Shown piece after piece: positions 37,774-46,749 of a stretch of 64,000 nt of DNA. The notes below the pieces were generated by a model. The model saw only the letters and a list, made by a program, of their open reading frames with translations, did not search any database and was not told the origin of the DNA. Source of the DNA: an uncultured Schlesneria sp. Its GTDB lineage: Bacteria > Planctomycetota > Planctomycetia > Planctomycetales > Planctomycetaceae. Where the stretch lies: the NCBI GenBank assembly GCA_903840265.1, contig CAIMFH010000148.1, positions 1-64,000 of the forward strand, read 5' to 3'. Positions within the stretch are counted from its first letter, which is position 1; each line of letters starts with the position of its first letter. A program made the translations under genes and the position numbers.

Positions 37774-38166
37774 TTACCAAAGCCGAATGACGCCATAAGC
37801 GTCTAATTTGGAATCGGCACTGACAATCGGCATCGATTCAACCATTGCCTGGACCACGAGCAATCGATCAAACGGATCTCTGTGGTTGTCCGGATACGGC
37901 AATCCGATCAGTCGAGCGGTGTGTACCGGCAAGATGGGTAGCACATTGAATCCATACTGAACTTGCGCCAGTTCGATGAACTCTTCGTAGGGCCGATTCA
38001 AAGTCCATTTCCCCAAGTTCACTTTGATCGCAATTTCCCAGTATGAAGCGGGGCTGATGAAAACTTCATTTGTGAAGTTCTGGATCAGCGTCTGAGCCGT
38101 CCCAGTCAGTTTCTGATCGCCGTCGATGTACCAAAACAAAGTATGCGTGTCGAGTAGCAGTCTCAC
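37774..38166 (-). CDS. PIN-domain toxin (VapC-type) of a type II toxin-antitoxin pair
   Basis: PIN-domain ribonucleases cut RNA with Mg2+. The 130-residue product shows the acidic residues expected: DTHTLFW (D6), WEIAIKVN (E44 region), RDPFDRLL (D97, D100) and SADSKLD near the C-terminus. Start is GTG 38166, overlapping the antitoxin stop (GTGA), so translation is coupled to the antitoxin. Size and antitoxin type fit the Phd/PIN subgroup. Confidence 0.88.
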   Translation of the reverse strand: MRLLLDTHTLFWYIDGDQKLTGTAQTLIQNFTNEVFISPASYWEIAIKVNLGKWTLNRPYEEFIELAQVQYGFNVLPILPVHTARLIGLPYPDNHRDPFDRLLVVQAMVESMPIVSADSKLDAYGVIRLW

Positions 38167-38396
38167 GGCATGTATTCCTCGAAGTCCTGCAGGTGTTCGT
38201 CATCCTCCGCAACAATGGAAATCATTCCCTTTCCCAATCCAGGTGCGGGACGAAGTCGAGGTTTCGGCGCTGGTTGACTCACCAGCTTTGCGACTGTCTG
38301 CTGGTTTTCCGTGATAATCAGCTCCTCACCAGGAGTCATCTGATGGATGAGTTCTTTTAAATTCGCCTGCGCTTCTTCGATCGTCACCGTCGTCAT
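38163..38396 (-). CDS. Phd/YefM-type antitoxin
   Basis: A 77-residue DNA-binding antitoxin. It begins MTTVTIEEAQANLKELIHQ, the Phd/YefM N-terminal fold that binds the operator, followed by GEELIITENQQTVAKLV; the acidic C-terminal part (EDDEHLQDFEEYMP) would wrap the toxin. ATG 38396 follows GGGAA at normal distance; an in-frame ATG 81 bases earlier is less likely. The pair is expected to repress its own promoter. Confidence 0.85.
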   Translation of the reverse strand: MTTVTIEEAQANLKELIHQMTPGEELIITENQQTVAKLVSQPAPKPRLRPAPGLGKGMISIVAEDDEHLQDFEEYMP

Positions 38397-38733
38397 GATT
38401 AAATTCCCAAAGCGATGTCTTCCGACTGCCAAGCGAAACGCAAATCCAGCCTCAACCAGATCCGGCGCGATGTTCAAGATTTGGGATCACTCTGTAATGA
38501 TATACCGCTCATACGTCAGAAAGTGAAACACGACGACCACGCGTCTCCTTGCAGTTGTCCAGCCAAATGAACTTGGCACGCCGCCTCACGCAATCGCGTC
38601 GCTCGCTCAAGATGATTCGAAGACCCTCGGCGCGCACCCCGAAGACTCAGTCGATTCCATTCATCCTGACTAGCTGCGATACTTAGAACAACGTTCTCAT
38701 CCTCACCGTTGAATCAGAAAGCAGGGCCGCCTC

Positions 38734-39945: not shown

Positions 39946-40338
39946 TCACTTAGCAGCGCCCTTCTTGGTCGGCTTTGCCTTTGCGATCACGACTTTTGGA
40001 ACGCTCTTCTTTGTCGCGGTCACCTTCGTCTTTTTCTTCGTACTATTCGGCTGAACTGAAGTCGATGACGGAGCGACCGCGCCTCTCGAGATGAATGACG
40101 GATTGCTATCGCAGAGTTCTTGAAAAGGGGGAATGTAAGTATCCGTCACGCTCGAGTTCAACAGGTTCGGCGACACTCCGACGCCAATCCCGTACCCAAC
40201 ACCAATTCCATTTCCGAGATTAGCGCCGTAATAGTCGCCGTATCCAGAGCCGGGCGGAGCATAATAGAAATCCTGAGCGGCGGCTTCGCGAGACGTCACT
40301 CCACAACAGACCAGGGCGACAAATGCAAGTGTTCTCAT
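39946..40338 (-). CDS. Small secreted Gly/Tyr-rich, Lys-tailed protein
   Basis: A 130-residue product from ATG 40338 (AAGGAAG upstream). Signal peptide (MRTLAFVALVCCGVTSREAAAQ), then a Gly/Tyr-rich part (YYAPPGSGYGDYYGANL, GIGVGYGIGVGVS), and a strongly basic tail rich in Lys, Thr and Ala (TKKKTKVTATKKSVPKVVIA). The tail resembles eukaryotic histone-H1-like or cell-wall-binding tails; it could bind nucleic acid or polyanionic surface material. No family recognised. Gap of 110 bases to the thioredoxin-like gene upstream. Confidence 0.6.
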   Translation of the reverse strand: MRTLAFVALVCCGVTSREAAAQDFYYAPPGSGYGDYYGANLGNGIGVGYGIGVGVSPNLLNSSVTDTYIPPFQELCDSNPSFISRGAVAPSSTSVQPNSTKKKTKVTATKKSVPKVVIAKAKPTKKGAAK

Positions 40339-40448: not shown

Positions 40449-40994
40449 CTATTTCGACTGCTTTGCCTTCACAGACTTCAGCTTGGCGACGAAGTCGTCT
40501 GGCTTCATGCGGTCGGTGTTGCTCTTTCCGACGTAGCGGAACAGTTCCTGGCCTGAACCACCCAGCACCACAAGCGCCGGATAATGCACGGTCTGGCCAT
40601 GAAACTTGTAACCGTCAGGAATGCCAAACTCTTTTGCCAAACCGGCGTCGGGGTCGCGGTAAATGACAGGGAGGTCCTTAAGGTCGTCCTGGCTGAGCTT
40701 CCCGGCCCAGGCTTTGATCTCATCAGCACTGTCGGGCTTCAGAAACACATGCAACACTTCGGGAGTCTTACTAGCCAGCTTGGCATATTCATTTGTGTGT
40801 TTGATGCAGTATGGACATTCCGTCTTCAGCAGGAAGTGCAGTGCGATCACTTTCCCCTTCTGCTCCGACAGCGTCAATGTTTTGCCATGAGTCGGCGATT
40901 CGATGGTAAAGTCCGTTGGATTCTCTGCGCGGGCCGTGACGGCGATCAGCGAGAGAATCAAGACCAGTCCAGCTCTTCTGTTGTTTGTTGTCAT
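40449..40994 (-). CDS. Secreted thioredoxin-like protein (paralogue of the anti-sigma domain)
   Basis: A 181-residue exported protein, start ATG 40994; no good ribosome site is visible. Signal peptide 1-23 (LVLILSLIAVTARAE). The mature part is an AhpC/TSA-type thioredoxin fold with TECPYC (C60, C63), which would form a disulfide, and an HYPALVVL strand where the cis-Pro belongs. It is about 71% identical, by hand alignment over 145 residues (103 matches), to the C-terminal domain of the anti-sigma-like protein at 42274-43128. The two copies flank the gene 41129-42223, so a duplication with an insertion between is likely. Presumably a periplasmic thiol-disulfide or peroxide-handling protein. 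Confidence 0.78.
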   Translation of the reverse strand: MTTNNRRAGLVLILSLIAVTARAENPTDFTIESPTHGKTLTLSEQKGKVIALHFLLKTECPYCIKHTNEYAKLASKTPEVLHVFLKPDSADEIKAWAGKLSQDDLKDLPVIYRDPDAGLAKEFGIPDGYKFHGQTVHYPALVVLGGSGQELFRYVGKSNTDRMKPDDFVAKLKSVKAKQSK

Positions 40995-41128: not shown

Positions 41129-42223
41129 TCACTCTTCCGCCAGCAGACTGTCCACGGCCGCTTCGATGGTTTTGTCGCCTGTCGCACCTTTCCAATTTAA
41201 TTCGCCTGGCCACCACAGCCGGATATAGCCTTGCTTGTCCACAACGTAGACGCATGGCCACATCGTATTGCCCCAGGCTTTCCAATTTTCAGATTGCAGG
41301 TCGACCATGATTGGAAACTTCAAATCACTTTCGCGAGCCGCGGCTTTCACAGCATCTGCATCCCGCTCGCGATTCGTTTCTGGCGTTTGAATGCCGACCA
41401 CGACTACGCCTTTGTCGGTCAATTCCTTGTGCCATCGCCGGTAGATTCCATAGTTGGCGTGACAGTTGTGACACTGAAACGCATAGAAGTGAATCAGCAC
41501 CACTTTGCCTCGTAACTCCCGCATGGTGAGCGGCGAAGAGTTGAGCCAGTGTTCCACGGGGGCAAACTCCGGAGCCATCGCATGGACGCGCTTCAGCCTG
41601 GCGGGGTCGAACGGATCGCCCAGCAAGGACTTCAGCTTCTCCCGTTGTTCCGGTCGTACGATCTTTGTCAGTCCATCTCGTTCGGCTCTGCTCGCCTTTT
41701 CCGCCCTTTCTTGAAGACCCTTGAGCTCCGGGTCACCAAACGCGACGCGTGCCAAGGCCACTTTCGATTCATCGGTCGCGCGGACTAGCACGGCCAGTTT
41801 CTGTTGCTGAGACGACTGCAGGCCGACCCGCTCCGCCATGTCGCTGCGCAACAGCATCCTGTTTCCTTGCGCGTAGTATTCCAGTTGCCGAAGTCGTTGT
41901 CGCTGCTCTTCCGTTGCGGATTTGCCGAACCAATCCCAAACCTGCGATTCCAATTTGACAGTCACCGCACGTTGCGTGTCGGCAGGCAAGTTGCGGGCGG
42001 GAAACCACTGCGCATCCACTTTGCGAAGCAGGGCTTCCAGATCGCCAATCTGCTTGACGGACAGCTTCAACTCTTTGTGAACCTCCGGCGCGTGGACAAG
42101 ACCAAGCAGGTATTGAGGAACCAGATTGCCGTAGGCACCATTCTTTTCCTGAGCGGCAAGGTGTCCCTGGATCGACAGAAGCAAGGCGACGACGCTCACG
42201 AGACAGCAGAATGCCTTCATCAC
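41129..42223 (-). CDS. Spy-like plus thioredoxin chimera, secreted
   Basis: A 364-residue exported protein; ATG 42223 or the next codon (both after GAGG). Signal peptide 1-24. Residues about 45-210 are helical, Spy/CpxP-like (VHKELKLSVKQIGDLEALL, ATEEQRQRL, LQSSQQQKLAVLV, VRPEQREKLKSLLGDPFD). Residues 225-364 are a TlpA/ResA-type thioredoxin domain with CHNC (C251, C254) and TMWPCVYVVD with cis-Pro (P323). An envelope chaperone-like sensor fused to a thiol oxidoreductase. It lies 50 bases downstream of the anti-sigma gene on the same strand and is probably in its regulon or operon. Confidence 0.78.
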   Translation of the reverse strand: MMKAFCCLVSVVALLLSIQGHLAAQEKNGAYGNLVPQYLLGLVHAPEVHKELKLSVKQIGDLEALLRKVDAQWFPARNLPADTQRAVTVKLESQVWDWFGKSATEEQRQRLRQLEYYAQGNRMLLRSDMAERVGLQSSQQQKLAVLVRATDESKVALARVAFGDPELKGLQERAEKASRAERDGLTKIVRPEQREKLKSLLGDPFDPARLKRVHAMAPEFAPVEHWLNSSPLTMRELRGKVVLIHFYAFQCHNCHANYGIYRRWHKELTDKGVVVVGIQTPETNRERDADAVKAAARESDLKFPIMVDLQSENWKAWGNTMWPCVYVVDKQGYIRLWWPGELNWKGATGDKTIEAAVDSLLAEE

Positions 42224-42273: not shown

Positions 42274-43128
42274 TCATTTGTGATCCGTCACCATCGCCAG
42301 CCTGGTGATGAAGTCGTCTGGCTTCATGCGGTCGGAATTGCTTTTGCCAACATAGCGGAACACTTCCTGGCCTGAACCATCAAGCAACACGAGTGCCGGG
42401 TAATGGGTGATAGAACCGTGAAATTCATAGCCGCCCGGAATGCCATATTCGTTGGCCAGCCGAGCGTCGGGGTCGCGATAGATAACAGGGGGACTCTTCA
42501 GCCCTTCCTGGCTGATCCGCTTGGCCCAGACTTTGATCTCCTCAGCACTGTCGGGTTTGAGGAAGAGATGCAACACATTGGGTTCGGAAGCCCCCAGCCG
42601 GGCATAGTCGTTCGTCAGCTTGAGGCAAAACGGACATTCGGTCTTCAGCAAAAAGTGCAATACGATCAATTTGCCCTTCTGCTCCGACAGCGCAAATGTT
42701 GTCCCATGAGTCGGCGATTCGACCATGAAATCGCTTGGCGGCAGGCTCCACATGTGAACACCGAACATCGCCATCGCAGACAGACACAACAAGGCAATGG
42801 CTGTCATCGCGGGATGTCGTCGTGCGAGCGAAGCAACTCGCGACGGGTTGGCGCTGCTCGTTGGCAAATGAATGCCGGGCTCAACGTCCGTGTTTACGGC
42901 ACCCTTGCTGACAGGTAAGTCTTCCCCTTGATGGTCCGCGGCTTCATTAACGACCTGAGTCAGGCATTGCAGCCCCAACTCCAGATCCTGATGTAGAAAC
43001 CACAGCTTCCGAGCGTCCACGTCCGCACGCAGCACGGCTTGTAGTTCTCGGTAGTCTGCCTCCGTAAGAGTCTCTTGTGTCCAAGCCACAAACAGATCCA
43101 GCAGGCGACCCTCCTGGTCGGGCGTCAT
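42274..43128 (-). CDS. Anti-sigma-like membrane protein fused to a thioredoxin-like domain
   Basis: A 284-residue protein, start ATG 43128 with GAGGGGG upstream; its ATG overlaps the sigma factor stop (ATGA), so the two are translationally coupled. Residues 1-60 (LLDLFVAWTQETLTEADY, LRADVDARKLWFLHQDLEL) are the short helical domain that begins planctomycete FecR-type anti-sigma proteins. A linker, one membrane segment (about 107-127, MTAIALLCLSAMAMFGVH) and then a thioredoxin-like domain with TECPFC (C165, C168) follow. The usual C-terminal FecR or LamG domain is replaced by an AhpC/TSA-type fold. I infer that the outer domain senses thiol redox state or peroxide and releases the sigma factor; this is not proven. 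Confidence 0.75.
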   Translation of the reverse strand: MTPDQEGRLLDLFVAWTQETLTEADYRELQAVLRADVDARKLWFLHQDLELGLQCLTQVVNEAADHQGEDLPVSKGAVNTDVEPGIHLPTSSANPSRVASLARRHPAMTAIALLCLSAMAMFGVHMWSLPPSDFMVESPTHGTTFALSEQKGKLIVLHFLLKTECPFCLKLTNDYARLGASEPNVLHLFLKPDSAEEIKVWAKRISQEGLKSPPVIYRDPDARLANEYGIPGGYEFHGSITHYPALVLLDGSGQEVFRYVGKSNSDRMKPDDFITRLAMVTDHK

Positions 43129-43673
43129 AGGGCCCCCTCTTGTAGACGACGTTGTACGCACTCGGTCAAACGTCGCCGAAGTAGAGTCAATTTGTTGTAC
43201 AGCGTCCGCGGCGCTCGCTGCAGTTTTGCGGCCAATTCGGTGATCCCACCGTGTTCCGCATAGGCCGTCCGTAAAAACTCGCGTTCGGCGAGCCCCACTT
43301 CATTCAAACATTGCTCCAGTGCTGCGATCCGTCGCCCCTGGAGATCGAGATCGACGAGCCGTTCCGAAGCCAAAGTCGCAAGCAAGTCGTCATCGAACTT
43401 CAACTGAGATCGCGCCGTTAGCCGCTGAAAGTTCTTCGCCTCGAAAAAACAAATCGTGCTGGCCCACGCCACGAAATTGCTCCCCGATTCATAGGTCTCG
43501 AATTTTCGCCACATCAGCAGACTGGAACTCTGCAAAACATCCTGCGCATCATGCCAACGACCCAGCAACGACATCAGATACCCAAACAACTTGCCATGCG
43601 CAGCCGTCAACAAGGTGACGAATTCCTCGTGCCGATCATTCGTGTTCGTTGTGACGGGTGGGTCAGTCACCAA
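43125..43673 (-). CDS. ECF sigma factor (planctomycete type)
   Basis: A 182-residue extracytoplasmic-function sigma-70 protein. Start is TTG 43673 or GTG 43670; neither has a strong ribosome site. Region 2 is visible in HGKLFGYLMSLLGRWHDAQDVLQ and KFETYESGSNFVAWASTICF (DNA melting and -10 contacts), and region 4 in LAEREFLRTAYAEHGGITELA with LQRAPRTLYNKLTLLRRRL as helix-turn-helix. Layout matches the planctomycete/Rhodopirellula 'Sig-70, FecR-like anti-sigma' group. It is first in a co-directional string of four genes (sigma, anti-sigma/thioredoxin, Spy-thioredoxin, thioredoxin), consistent with autoregulation. Confidence 0.86.
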   Translation of the reverse strand: MVTDPPVTTNTNDRHEEFVTLLTAAHGKLFGYLMSLLGRWHDAQDVLQSSSLLMWRKFETYESGSNFVAWASTICFFEAKNFQRLTARSQLKFDDDLLATLASERLVDLDLQGRRIAALEQCLNEVGLAEREFLRTAYAEHGGITELAAKLQRAPRTLYNKLTLLRRRLTECVQRRLQEGAL

Positions 43674-44733
43674 AATGAAACCTCACGAACCATCGTCAGG
43701 ACGGTTCAATTGCCGAATTCGAGAAGCGCACAAGCTGCGATTCACTAGCATCATATGTCGCGACATCACGAAAGTGACCGACTCGTCCATCCAAGATTCG
43801 TCAGCGGGCTGGGGTAAAGCCATCAACAAGGCACACCCGCTTCACGCTGGATGAACGTGGAAGAATGCGGCGACACAAAAGATCACAAAGACCATTGCCA
43901 TCGTGACTAACGGCTTCGTTTGAAGTCGCAATAAGAGGGAAGAAACGAGCCATCCCACTCCTCTGTTTGCTCATGGGCCGGCAGAAAATATTCGAATTCT
44001 GCCGCAGAAGCTTCATCCATCAGCCACTTCGAATGTTCGTAGCCGCAGCACAGACGCGTGGCCGGGTCGACCAGCGGGAGCCTCCCAGGTGAGATGCAGT
44101 CGAACTCTCAGTCCAAGTCAGTGGAAGAAGAATGAGAGCCCTGTCCGATTCCCCAGCAGTGACGTTATCTTCGATAGCTGACTCATCTTTGTGTCGGACG
44201 GACGGTCCCCATCAGAGCTTTCGGCGGCGACAGAAGAACGAACCACAGCAACAGGAAGGCCCCATTCAGCATAGCCAATCTCGCCTTCCCGTAGCTAAGG
44301 TCGCCAAGACCTTGGGCGGAAGTCGATGTGCCAACAACGTCGAACAACACTGACCCAAGTTCTTGGCGACGTTGGCTACGAGAAAGAATCCTGTCGAAAG
44401 AGACCAGCAACAGGGGTTGTGTCATGCAGAGTCGTGACGAAAGACGTGTGCGCGAACTGTCTGTCGCTCGGCCCTCAGCCCTTGCCCCTCAGCATCTTCC
44501 AGTCGGTTGTGTCATACATCTGCGAAACCTCGTCTCGTCTTCCATTTTAAATTTGCAATCTCCCTTCACTCACATTCGGCATTCCTTCATCGTCTTTATT
44601 CGTGCGAATTCGTCCGATTCGTGGTCCCGTTTTTCCTCTTCTTTTCGCCCCTTCAATATCTTCTGTGGTTCACCTCTTCTCCGTGCCGGGTGCTCACATT
44701 TCCTTGCAGGCGGACGCCGTCGTAGAATGGGCC
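43674..44733. other. 1-kb intergenic region, no convincing gene
   Basis: Divergent region between the leftward sigma gene and the rightward ABC exporter. Frames here lack start signals or protein-like composition; one 80-codon leftward frame (44183-44425) has a hydrophobic end but is interrupted by the inverted repeat at 44290-44380 and is not believed. It must contain the ECF sigma promoter; no clear -35/-10 pair seen. Confidence 0.4.
44290..44380. repeat. Imperfect inverted repeat, 27-bp arms
   Basis: Bases 44290-44316 (CGTAGCTAAGGTCGCCAAGA start) and 44354-44380 are inverted copies with about four mismatches around a 37-base centre. Non-coding; MITE-like or a remnant of a mobile element. 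Confidence 0.5.
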
Positions 44734-46749
44734 ATGCAAACAAAATCCGCTGAACAGACCGCCGCACCTGCCTCCACGCCAACGGCCGCTTCAACCACTG
44801 GCCCCGAGCCCACTTCCAGCCGGTCTCGCTTTGAACAGTACCGTCGCAAACTGAATCGCAAAGAACTGCCCGGCGGTTCGATTCATGGCAGCGGAGACCA
44901 TCGCAAGCCAAAGGATCGAGCCCGCTCGTCCAGTAAACTCGTCGGTCAGTTTCTGCAATTGCTCGTCCCGTTCCGTGGTGCCGTGATTGCGATCCTGGCT
45001 TCGGTCACGATTTCGACGGTGCTCGGTTTGCTGCCACCAGCGGGAACAAAGTTCATTATCGACTACGGCCTGACCGGGAAGACGCTGCCCGAGTACTGGC
45101 TGAAGCGGTTTCCGTCACTGGCCGATCCCAAGTCGCTATTGCTGGCCACCGTGCTGGCGGTGTCGGCCGTCACGCTGCTCAAGCTGCTGATTCATATCTG
45201 GGGCCGGTGGTATGCGACGCGGATCTCCAAGCAAATTCAGTTGAACCTGCGCCGCGCGGTATTTGAACATGCCGTCCGCTTGCCGCTGCATCGTGTGCAA
45301 GAGCTTCGATCCGGCGGCGTCGCGTCGATACTGCGCGAAGACGGTGGCAGCGTGGGGGAACTGGTCTTCGGCATGTTGTTCAACCCCTGGCGAGCCGTCA
45401 TCCAGCTGATCGGCAGTCTGATCATCCTGGCCTGGGTCGATTGGACGTTGCTGCTGGGTGCGGTAATCCTGCTGCCGATGGTCTTTCTGACTCATCGCGC
45501 CTGGATCAACAGCATTCGCCCGCAATTCCGCGTGATCCGCAAGCAGCGCGAAATGATCGACGCCTCGGCGACGGAAGCTTTCGCCGGGATGCGGATCGTC
45601 CGCGCGTTCAGTCGGCAGAAGCGCGAAGCGGCTCGGTTCACGACTGAAAACAACCTGATGGCTCGACAAGAACTGTACGCCTGGTGGTGGATGCGGATCG
45701 TCGAGATGGTGTGGGAAGCCCTGATCCCGATGGCCAGTGCCGCCCTGCTCTTCTACGGGGGCTGGCGAGTCCTCGAAGGACACATGACCGTCGGTGACCT
45801 GATGATGTTTCTGGTCTATCTGCTGATGCTGCTGGAACCACTCGCGACGTTGGCCTCCAGCGCGACTCAGTTCCAGAACAGCCTCAGCGGTTTGGATCGC
45901 GTCTTGGATCTGCTCGCCGAATCGCGCGAGATGCCGTCCAACCCCGATTCATTGCGAGCCGAAAAGCGTGACGTGGCCGGTGCCGTCGCCTTTGAAGATG
46001 TTTCGTTCACCTACCCCGGCAACGACATCCTCGCACTGACCAATGTCTCATTGTCTGTAAAGGCCGGTCAGACCGTTGCCCTCGTTGGTCCCAGTGGGGC
46101 CGGCAAGACGACGCTCAGCAATCTGGTGGCTCGGTTCTATGATCCGACATCAGGTCGCGTGACACTCGATGGCCGTGACCTGCGCGACTACGACGTGGAA
46201 TCGTTCCGGGCGCTCTTGGGCGTGGTCGAGCAGGATGTGTTTCTGTTCGACGGCACGATCCGTCAGAACATCGCGTACGCTCGCCGCGATGCATCGGATG
46301 CCGAGGTTCGCGCCGCGGCTGAAGCCGCCAATGCGATGGAGTTCATCGACCGCCTCAGCGACGGACTGAACACTTTGATCGGCGAACGAGGCGTCCGCCT
46401 CAGTGGCGGCCAGCGGCAACGACTGGCCATCGCGCGAGCGGTCCTGGCCGACCCCAAGCTGCTGGTGCTCGACGAAGCCACCAGCAACCTGGACACCGAG
46501 AGCGAGCGATTGATTCAACAAAGCCTCAGCCTGCTGATGAAGGGCCGCACCAGTTTCGTGATCGCGCATCGCCTGAGCACGATCGCTGGCGCCGACCTGA
46601 TCGTCGTCATGGAAAACGGCCGCATCAGTCAGACCGGCACGCATCAGGAACTGATGTCAGAAGGAGGCAAATACCGCACGATGGTCGAGCAACAGATTCA
46701 CATGACGCTCGGCAATGTCACAACGGCAAACGTCAGGGGTCAGTCGTGA
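44734..46749 (+). CDS. ABC exporter, MsbA/multidrug type (membrane plus ATPase)
   Basis: A 671-residue half-transporter, probably a homodimer exporting lipids, polysaccharide precursors or drugs. I start at ATG 44734 (MQTKSAEQTAAP); the frame is open upstream but that part is low-complexity. After an 80-residue Ser/Thr/Pro- and Lys/Arg-rich cytoplasmic extension, six membrane segments follow. The nucleotide-binding domain has Walker A VGPSGAGKTT (about 450-459), signature LSGGQRQRLAIARA (about 556-569), Walker B LLVLDEATSNLD (about 576-587) and H-loop IAHRLST. All catalytic residues are present. Single gene; the long N-terminal extension is unusual for MsbA. Confidence 0.92.
   Translation: MQTKSAEQTAAPASTPTAASTTGPEPTSSRSRFEQYRRKLNRKELPGGSIHGSGDHRKPKDRARSSSKLVGQFLQLLVPFRGAVIAILASVTISTVLGLLPPAGTKFIIDYGLTGKTLPEYWLKRFPSLADPKSLLLATVLAVSAVTLLKLLIHIWGRWYATRISKQIQLNLRRAVFEHAVRLPLHRVQELRSGGVASILREDGGSVGELVFGMLFNPWRAVIQLIGSLIILAWVDWTLLLGAVILLPMVFLTHRAWINSIRPQFRVIRKQREMIDASATEAFAGMRIVRAFSRQKREAARFTTENNLMARQELYAWWWMRIVEMVWEALIPMASAALLFYGGWRVLEGHMTVGDLMMFLVYLLMLLEPLATLASSATQFQNSLSGLDRVLDLLAESREMPSNPDSLRAEKRDVAGAVAFEDVSFTYPGNDILALTNVSLSVKAGQTVALVGPSGAGKTTLSNLVARFYDPTSGRVTLDGRDLRDYDVESFRALLGVVEQDVFLFDGTIRQNIAYARRDASDAEVRAAAEAANAMEFIDRLSDGLNTLIGERGVRLSGGQRQRLAIARAVLADPKLLVLDEATSNLDTESERLIQQSLSLLMKGRTSFVIAHRLSTIAGADLIVVMENGRISQTGTHQELMSEGGKYRTMVEQQIHMTLGNVTTANVRGQS

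Follow-up and report, generated by a model that had tools for sequence, protein, structure and literature searches.

The window, the whole stretch of 64,000 nucleotides analysed here, carries on its minus strand a four-gene cassette that reads, from its upstream end, promoter-like block, ECF sigma factor gene, A, R and T. The sigma gene (43125..43673) is assigned to the TIGR02989 family. It is followed by A (42274..43128), supported by its open reading frame, Pfam matches and a structure model, which encodes a candidate anti-sigma factor of 284 amino acids. R (41129..42223) begins 50 bases after A and encodes a protein with a ResA-like thioredoxin domain and a CHNC motif. A further 134 bases separate R from T (40449..40994), a redoxin with a CPYC motif whose start was taken as the first ATG of its frame. 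The promoter-like block, GGTCAMTTT-N11-GACRTATGA, sits upstream of the sigma gene at 43751..43779 on the same strand and was located by conservation. The initial annotation had claimed that the sigma stop codon and the anti-sigma start codon overlap; the ATGA is found at 43128-43125, and ORF coordinates show the same 4-base overlap in all seven genomes that carry the cassette. To that annotation we add R, T, the second copy of the redoxin domain present in T and the promoter-like block. Upstream, an ABC transporter gene (44602-46749) reads in the opposite direction. Elsewhere in the window, a PIN-domain gene and an overlapping Phd/YefM-like gene (27.3 bits, cut-off 29.8) at 37774-38477, minus strand, are likely a toxin–antitoxin pair.

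Identification of the sigma protein as an ECF sigma factor was borne out by its match to TIGR02989 (Sig-70_gvs1), which scores 145.9 bits against a curated cut-off of 124.55 and spans the full model length (1-158). The Pfam scan gave Sigma70_r2 at 33.3 bits (cut-off 24) and no region 4 model above cut-off. The gene may start at GTG 43670 instead of TTG 43673, since the GTG is common to the five nearest relatives in the upstream alignment. The promoter-like block precedes the sigma gene in 7/7 cassette genomes. Each of these holds one exact copy and there is none elsewhere in the 12 genus genomes searched, which include five of the eight that lack the cassette; none of those five has the exact block. 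Within the window, a search tolerating up to three mismatches returned one match against 0.10 expected. With two mismatches allowed, ten further sites were found in six genomes, compared with one hit of a reversed-pattern control. Three of the ten are of one sequence type (L145, L146 and L147, in genomes G006, G002 and G001 respectively) and one of these three genomes has no cassette; this version of the block is perhaps the site of another sigma factor. We infer that the block at 43751-43779 is a promoter and that the operon itself is the main target of the sigma factor.

Structure prediction (AlphaFold) of the 284-residue A gave a three-helix N-terminus, one membrane helix and then a thioredoxin fold, with a mean pLDDT of 80.1 and a pTM of 0.67. 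Helices are formed by residues 3-17, 23-35, 37-66, 95-104 and 106-126. The protein thus comprises an N-terminal module (approximately residues 1-66), a linker that is weakly ordered (pLDDT below 50 for residues 75-94), the membrane helix (106-126) and the thioredoxin-fold domain (131-284) that contains C165 and C168. A single hydrophobic segment, residues 106-124, agrees with the one membrane segment originally proposed. Arginines precede this helix and suggest that the N-terminus is inside and the C-terminus outside.

Residues 133-265 match the Pfam families AhpC-TSA (31.7 bits, cut-off 26) and Redoxin (28 bits, cut-off 26.6); neither FecR nor LamG was found in A at E<=1, consistent with the initial description of the outer part. 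That description had also called the domain AhpC/TSA-type, which holds as a Pfam label and fails for the active site. The active-site motif of peroxiredoxins is PxxxT/SxxC. On reading the sequence of A, H158 and K162 occupy the P and T/S places. Because the peroxiredoxin motif is absent, the outer domain is better described as a TlpA/ResA-like CxxC thiol-disulfide domain than as a peroxiredoxin. The reported CPFC motif is present as C165-P166-F167-C168; both cysteines are kept in 7/7 orthologues and are the only invariant cysteines of A. P244, also invariant, is probably the cis-Pro. The solved structures nearest to the modelled domain have TlpA/ResA-like and peroxiredoxin folds, among them 4evm (Z 16.4, rmsd 1.9, 131 residues aligned) and ResA (1su9, E 2.2e-8 in the structure search). 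A sequence search for solved structures returned 4evm alone at E<=0.1 (E 0.036). Over five species pairs, dN/dS is 0.02-0.14 for the thioredoxin domain, 0.21-0.31 for the N-terminus, 0.54-2.5 for the linker and 0-0.87 for the membrane segment, all rough values for short stretches. As judged from these comparisons, purifying selection has preserved both the fold of the outer domain and its active site, around which there are small changes.

The N-terminus of A had been described as short, helical and of the FecR type, and it can be aligned with the same region of ten FecR-type relatives. Matches to the sigma gene adjoin the FecR-type relatives tested, in L011 and L013 as seen by eye. The nearest relative is at locus L042, where a TIGR02989 sigma gene 54% identical to that of the cassette precedes a FecR+LamG protein; the N-terminus of the latter shares 45% identity with A over 53 residues. 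These alignments indicate that the N-terminus of A is homologous to the N-termini of planctomycete FecR-type anti-sigma factors. The outer parts of five relatives are FecR with LamG, FecR, PSCyt2/PSD1, FecR below cut-off, and NPCBM with FecR below cut-off. The PSCyt2/PSD1 case (L011:1-1908, minus strand) is another swapped outer part, fused to the same type of anti-sigma N-terminus behind a sigma gene.

Modelled alone, the N-terminus of A has a mean pLDDT above 90 over residues 1-60. The initial annotation expected this region to fit a sigma-binding fold, and its best structural matches do include anti-sigma domains, each of them individually weak. The model matches RsiW (Z 7.0, rmsd 5.2, 68 aligned), two entries of MucA (Z 6.0, rmsd 2.3, 53 aligned; Z 5.7, rmsd 2.9, 55 aligned), RslA (Z 5.1, rmsd 5.7, 64 aligned), which ties with a retron protein, and ChrR (Z 3.1, rmsd 9.8, 70 aligned). 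Foldseek E-values exceed 1, so every one of these matches is weak when taken alone; the five anti-sigma entries (5wuq, 8z6g, 6in7, 3hug and 2z2s) among 31 structural rows, three of them the top three, nevertheless point one way. At E<=1, residues 1-66 match no Pfam anti-sigma family, and A as a whole matches neither FecR (PF04773) nor DUF4880 (PF16220). PF16220 is absent as well from the five planctomycete relatives scanned (E<=0.1). A profile comparison with the DUF4880-type N-terminus of L061 was not significant (probability 3.3%), and a search of PDB sequences with the N-terminus gave seven matches, all with E of at least 0.21 and none to an anti-sigma factor. Zinc-type (ZAS) anti-sigma factors have a HxxxCxxC motif in their cytoplasmic domain. 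There is no such motif in A, in which C55 is the sole cysteine before the membrane helix.

R matches AhpC-TSA at 53.2 bits (cut-off 26); its best NCBIfam match is ResA PRK03147, at 47.8 bits and thus below the cut-off of 170. It is conserved in 7/7 cassettes. The roughly 200 N-terminal residues that precede its thioredoxin domain match no Pfam family at E<=1, and this part is seen again, within R-like genes, in several other genomes of the genus that lack the cassette. T is above cut-off for both Redoxin (39.1 bits) and AhpC-TSA (38.8 bits). By eye, R and T have signal-peptide-like starts, and from their sequences both look like exported thiol-disulfide proteins. A DsbD-type membrane protein is present in the genome from which the window comes (one match); it fits a supply of thiols on the outer side and proves nothing.

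Over 162 residues T is 65% identical to residues 119-280 of A. A tree was built from 89 rows, comprising 75 distinct outside T sequences (identical stretches merged), seven T and seven A. The seven A domains form one clade (100/97), which sits inside a 13-row clade (97/92) whose other six rows are Schlesneria T; the seventh Schlesneria T, that of G003, is placed, unresolved, outside this 13-row clade. Since the A domains nest as a single clade among Schlesneria T, a single origin of the sensor is most likely, in which T was duplicated within the Schlesneria lineage and the copy was then fused. The 82 T rows share 37 positions at a conservation of 97% or more, and 32 of these, including both cysteines, are kept in all seven copies of A; the exceptions are 147, 152, 163, 172 and 241. 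The residue between the proline of the motif and the second cysteine is Y in 6/7 Schlesneria T, and F (four copies) or N (three copies) in A.

The complete four-gene cassette was found in 7/15 genomes of the genus, whose members are labelled Schlesneria. One of the seven is a single contig, and with the same arrangement in all seven an assembly artefact was ruled out. Six of the eight genus genomes lacking the cassette have no match to A. Weak matches in the other two, G007 and G011, turned out to come from another redoxin, with an R-like gene close by. In G010 an R-like gene (46%) was found, and the 16 kb fetched there gave no significant match to sigma, A or T. The flanks of the cassette differ: when five flanking genes were compared with the loci of six relatives, only 39946-40338 recurred, in G012. 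The domain order of A was also sought in other planctomycetes, as the initial annotation had proposed, and the whole-model matches all fall in one genus. Whole or near-whole model matches occur in seven of 397 genomes of the class, all of that genus (best five candidates per genome). A second, overlapping draw of 392 genomes from the phylum gave one match, the genome of the window itself (best six candidates per genome). Both parts of A are present at four of the 79 loci that make up the best 80 of 120 relatives, and all four are labelled Schlesneria. The class and phylum draws do not support a general planctomycete type; further cousins could exist beyond the best-scoring candidates.

The other 75 of these 79 loci, obtained by scanning a single genome for each species, encode a T-like protein that has no match to the N-terminus of A at E<=1e-3. 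Free-standing T is labelled Planctomycetota, Verrucomicrobiota, Bacteroidota, Sumerlaeota or Hydrogenedentota. One locus labelled Klebsiella pneumoniae (L089) probably bears the wrong species label, because its T groups with T of Limisphaerales (100/96). At L068:193-1149, T is fused to a C-terminal YHS-like part (YHS 20.8, below the cut-off of 30.3), and a fusion of this kind was seen by eye at L073, L088, L091, L092, L098, L102, L120 and L132. In two of the 75 loci, both from Verrucomicrobiota, T lies behind a TIGR02989 sigma gene and a gene for a FecR-type anti-sigma. The anti-sigma of L061 exceeds the cut-off for DUF4880 and falls short of that for FecR; that of L063, a locus where T is inside a 704-aa frame, exceeds the FecR cut-off and falls short for DUF4880. 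The two loci represent an unfused version of what is found in the Schlesneria cassette. Among the 75 T loci, four (L064, L071, L081 and L083) hold an R-like gene that comprises both of its parts.

Within the DNA fetched, msrP and msrQ lie near T in 7/75 T loci; MsrP is above cut-off in each of the three scanned for it, and MsrQ in the single locus scanned. In L069 T is directly behind an msrQ-type gene. L064 has in addition an ECF sigma gene, R and a small lipoprotein-like ORF (by eye) rich in M and in K-D repeats. The full planctomycete stretch, L064:593-7580, comprises genes for a SpoIIE-type phosphatase, an msrQ-type protein, msrP, the M/K/D-repeat ORF, the ECF sigma factor, T and R, and looks like an uncharacterised cluster for envelope defence against oxidants of the hypochlorite type. 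Passages of PMC4623255 and PMC8315932 describe a combination of msrPQ, a methionine-rich peptide and a dedicated sigma/anti-sigma pair as a hypochlorite defence.

The Schlesneria cassette itself contains no msrP. MsrP is above cut-off in 3/7 cassette genomes and below it in 4/7, including the genome of the window, where the single PF00174 match is not MsrP by cut-off. Of the eight genus genomes without the cassette, five have MsrP above cut-off, two of them with an internal stop. MsrPQ as a target of this sigma factor is not supported in Schlesneria, because the 12 genomes searched hold no exact block other than the one that precedes the sigma gene and MsrP is patchy in the genus. Oxidant or hypochlorite stress as the signal is suggested only by the neighbours of T in other lineages.

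We consider it somewhat probable that the cassette is autoregulated, with A sequestering the sigma factor, its T-derived outer domain sampling thiol state or substrate load, and release leading the sigma factor to autoactivate sigma-A-R-T. The N-terminal module of A would keep the sigma factor at the membrane. The outer domain would be a copy of T that replaced the FecR domain on a FecR-type anti-sigma module and kept the active site of T; it would read the envelope condition that T handles, either by its CxxC being oxidised or reduced or by being engaged by the substrate or electron donor of T. When thiol stress exceeds the capacity of T and R, A would free the sigma factor through a conformational change or regulated proteolysis. 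The freed sigma factor would transcribe its own operon from the promoter-like block, and the additional T and R would restore the balance, upon which A would close again. Thiol chemistry in A would in this way gate the sigma factor, as the initial annotation had anticipated.

Reading A as an anti-sigma factor with a T-derived sensor is favoured by the homology of its N-terminus, the nesting of its outer domain among T, the kept active site, the conserved block and the counterparts at L061 and L063. Gene order, domain architecture, purifying selection and the one conserved promoter-like site are likewise direct observations, on which the model places sigma binding by A, the identity and polarity of the signal, the mode of release and autoregulation as its putative elements. 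Counting against it are the weak structural matches of the N-terminus, the lack of an anti-sigma match in Pfam or PDB searches, a block known by its conservation alone, the ten further two-mismatch sites, an msrP link that comes from other lineages, and the T of G003, which groups apart. More tentatively, and at slightly less than an even chance, the sigma-binding module would bear a catalytically competent copy of the enzyme. The catalytic state of this copy would be the signal, and a closed feedback loop would result in which free T and the membrane-bound copy compete for substrate or electrons.

The outer domain could instead sense by binding. It would then act as bait for the substrate of T (a damaged exported protein, for example), for R or for T, the sigma factor being freed on occupancy or on vacancy, and the cysteines would serve in a transient mixed disulfide or for stability. 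The retention of the whole T-family surface (32/37 conserved positions in 7/7), not of the CxxC alone, is what such a bait would show, and R and T are encoded beside A in all seven cassettes. The strict conservation of both cysteines and of P244 nonetheless exceeds what a plain binding site needs, and the partner is purely hypothetical; we regard sensing by binding as unlikely. In a still less likely reading, A works as a T enzyme anchored in the membrane, and the gene fusion does no more than place this enzyme together with sigma control; the trigger would then be an unrelated event, for instance general proteolysis of the anti-sigma module. An intact active site suits a tethered enzyme, the fast-evolving linker (dN/dS 0.54-2.5) looks as if the halves were loosely coupled, and in relatives the same module bears unlike outer parts (FecR, LamG, NPCBM, PSCyt2/PSD1). 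The fusion is, however, kept in 7/7 cassettes, and a second, tethered copy of T needs a reason, because free T is encoded two genes away.

We find it very improbable that A is not an anti-sigma factor at all, its N-terminus having another role and the sigma factor being regulated otherwise. The searches that would favour this are those in which residues 1-66 gave no Pfam anti-sigma match at E<=1, the L061 DUF4880-type comparison was not significant (3.3%) and Foldseek E-values were above 1. Set against them are the match with the N-terminus of the L042 protein (45% identical over 53 residues), itself encoded behind a 54%-identical sigma gene, the 4-base overlap with the sigma gene in 7/7 cassettes, and the anti-sigma entries that make up 5/31 structural rows with three on top.

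Planctomycetes possess many ECF sigma factors, and the signals of most of their regulators are not known. Here the origin of the sensor hints at the signal: the condition that its parent enzyme deals with. If the autoregulated model is correct, duplicating an output enzyme and fusing it to an anti-sigma module would be a simple route to a new sensor with immediate feedback, and the cassette would be a small, self-contained redox switch. That free T is linked with msrP/msrQ loci as well as with other sigma/anti-sigma pairs suggests a role in envelope oxidant defence for this widespread, unnamed redoxin family.

Among known systems, the FecR-type anti-sigma factors that accompany TIGR02989-like sigma factors in Planctomycetota and Verrucomicrobiota (L042, L013, L061 and L063) resemble A in being membrane proteins with a short helical N-terminus encoded behind the sigma gene. 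Their outer part is FecR (with LamG in L042; below cut-off in L061), whereas A has a thioredoxin-fold domain, and L061 and L063 keep T as a gene of its own after the pair, unlike the fusion in A. The zinc-type redox anti-sigma factors RsrA, RslA and ChrR are described, in outline, as likewise using cysteines for redox control of a sigma factor. These cysteines sit in the cytoplasmic sigma-binding domain, in contrast to A, where the invariant cysteines are confined to the outer domain. RsiV, the lysozyme-receptor anti-sigma of Bacillus, is similar to A in that, from the summary accounts, an outer domain senses an envelope condition; RsiV binds the attacking enzyme, whereas A bears a copy of an enzyme of its own operon. 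The extracellular thioredoxins of the TlpA/ResA/Etrx type (1su9, 4evm and 4hqs) share fold and CxxC with residues 131-284 of A; to our knowledge they are not fused to an anti-sigma module. The SigF/NrsF (ECF16) systems, with MsrPQ and a methionine-rich peptide (for example BcrS/AbcS), also combine an ECF sigma factor and a membrane anti-sigma in envelope oxidant defence, and passages of PMC8315932 and PMC4623255 propose that periplasm-exposed Cys detects the signal in systems of this type. The member of the NrsF/ECF16 anti-sigma group described in such passages has six membrane helices, whereas A combines a single helix with a folded enzyme domain on the outside. Among the matches listed in a literature search, at the level of abstracts and with the main ECF reclassification and the 2012 planctomycete survey outside its scope, there was no transmembrane anti-sigma with a thioredoxin-type outer domain. 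Set beside these systems, A is a candidate membrane anti-sigma factor with a swapped outer domain and not a new kind of regulator.
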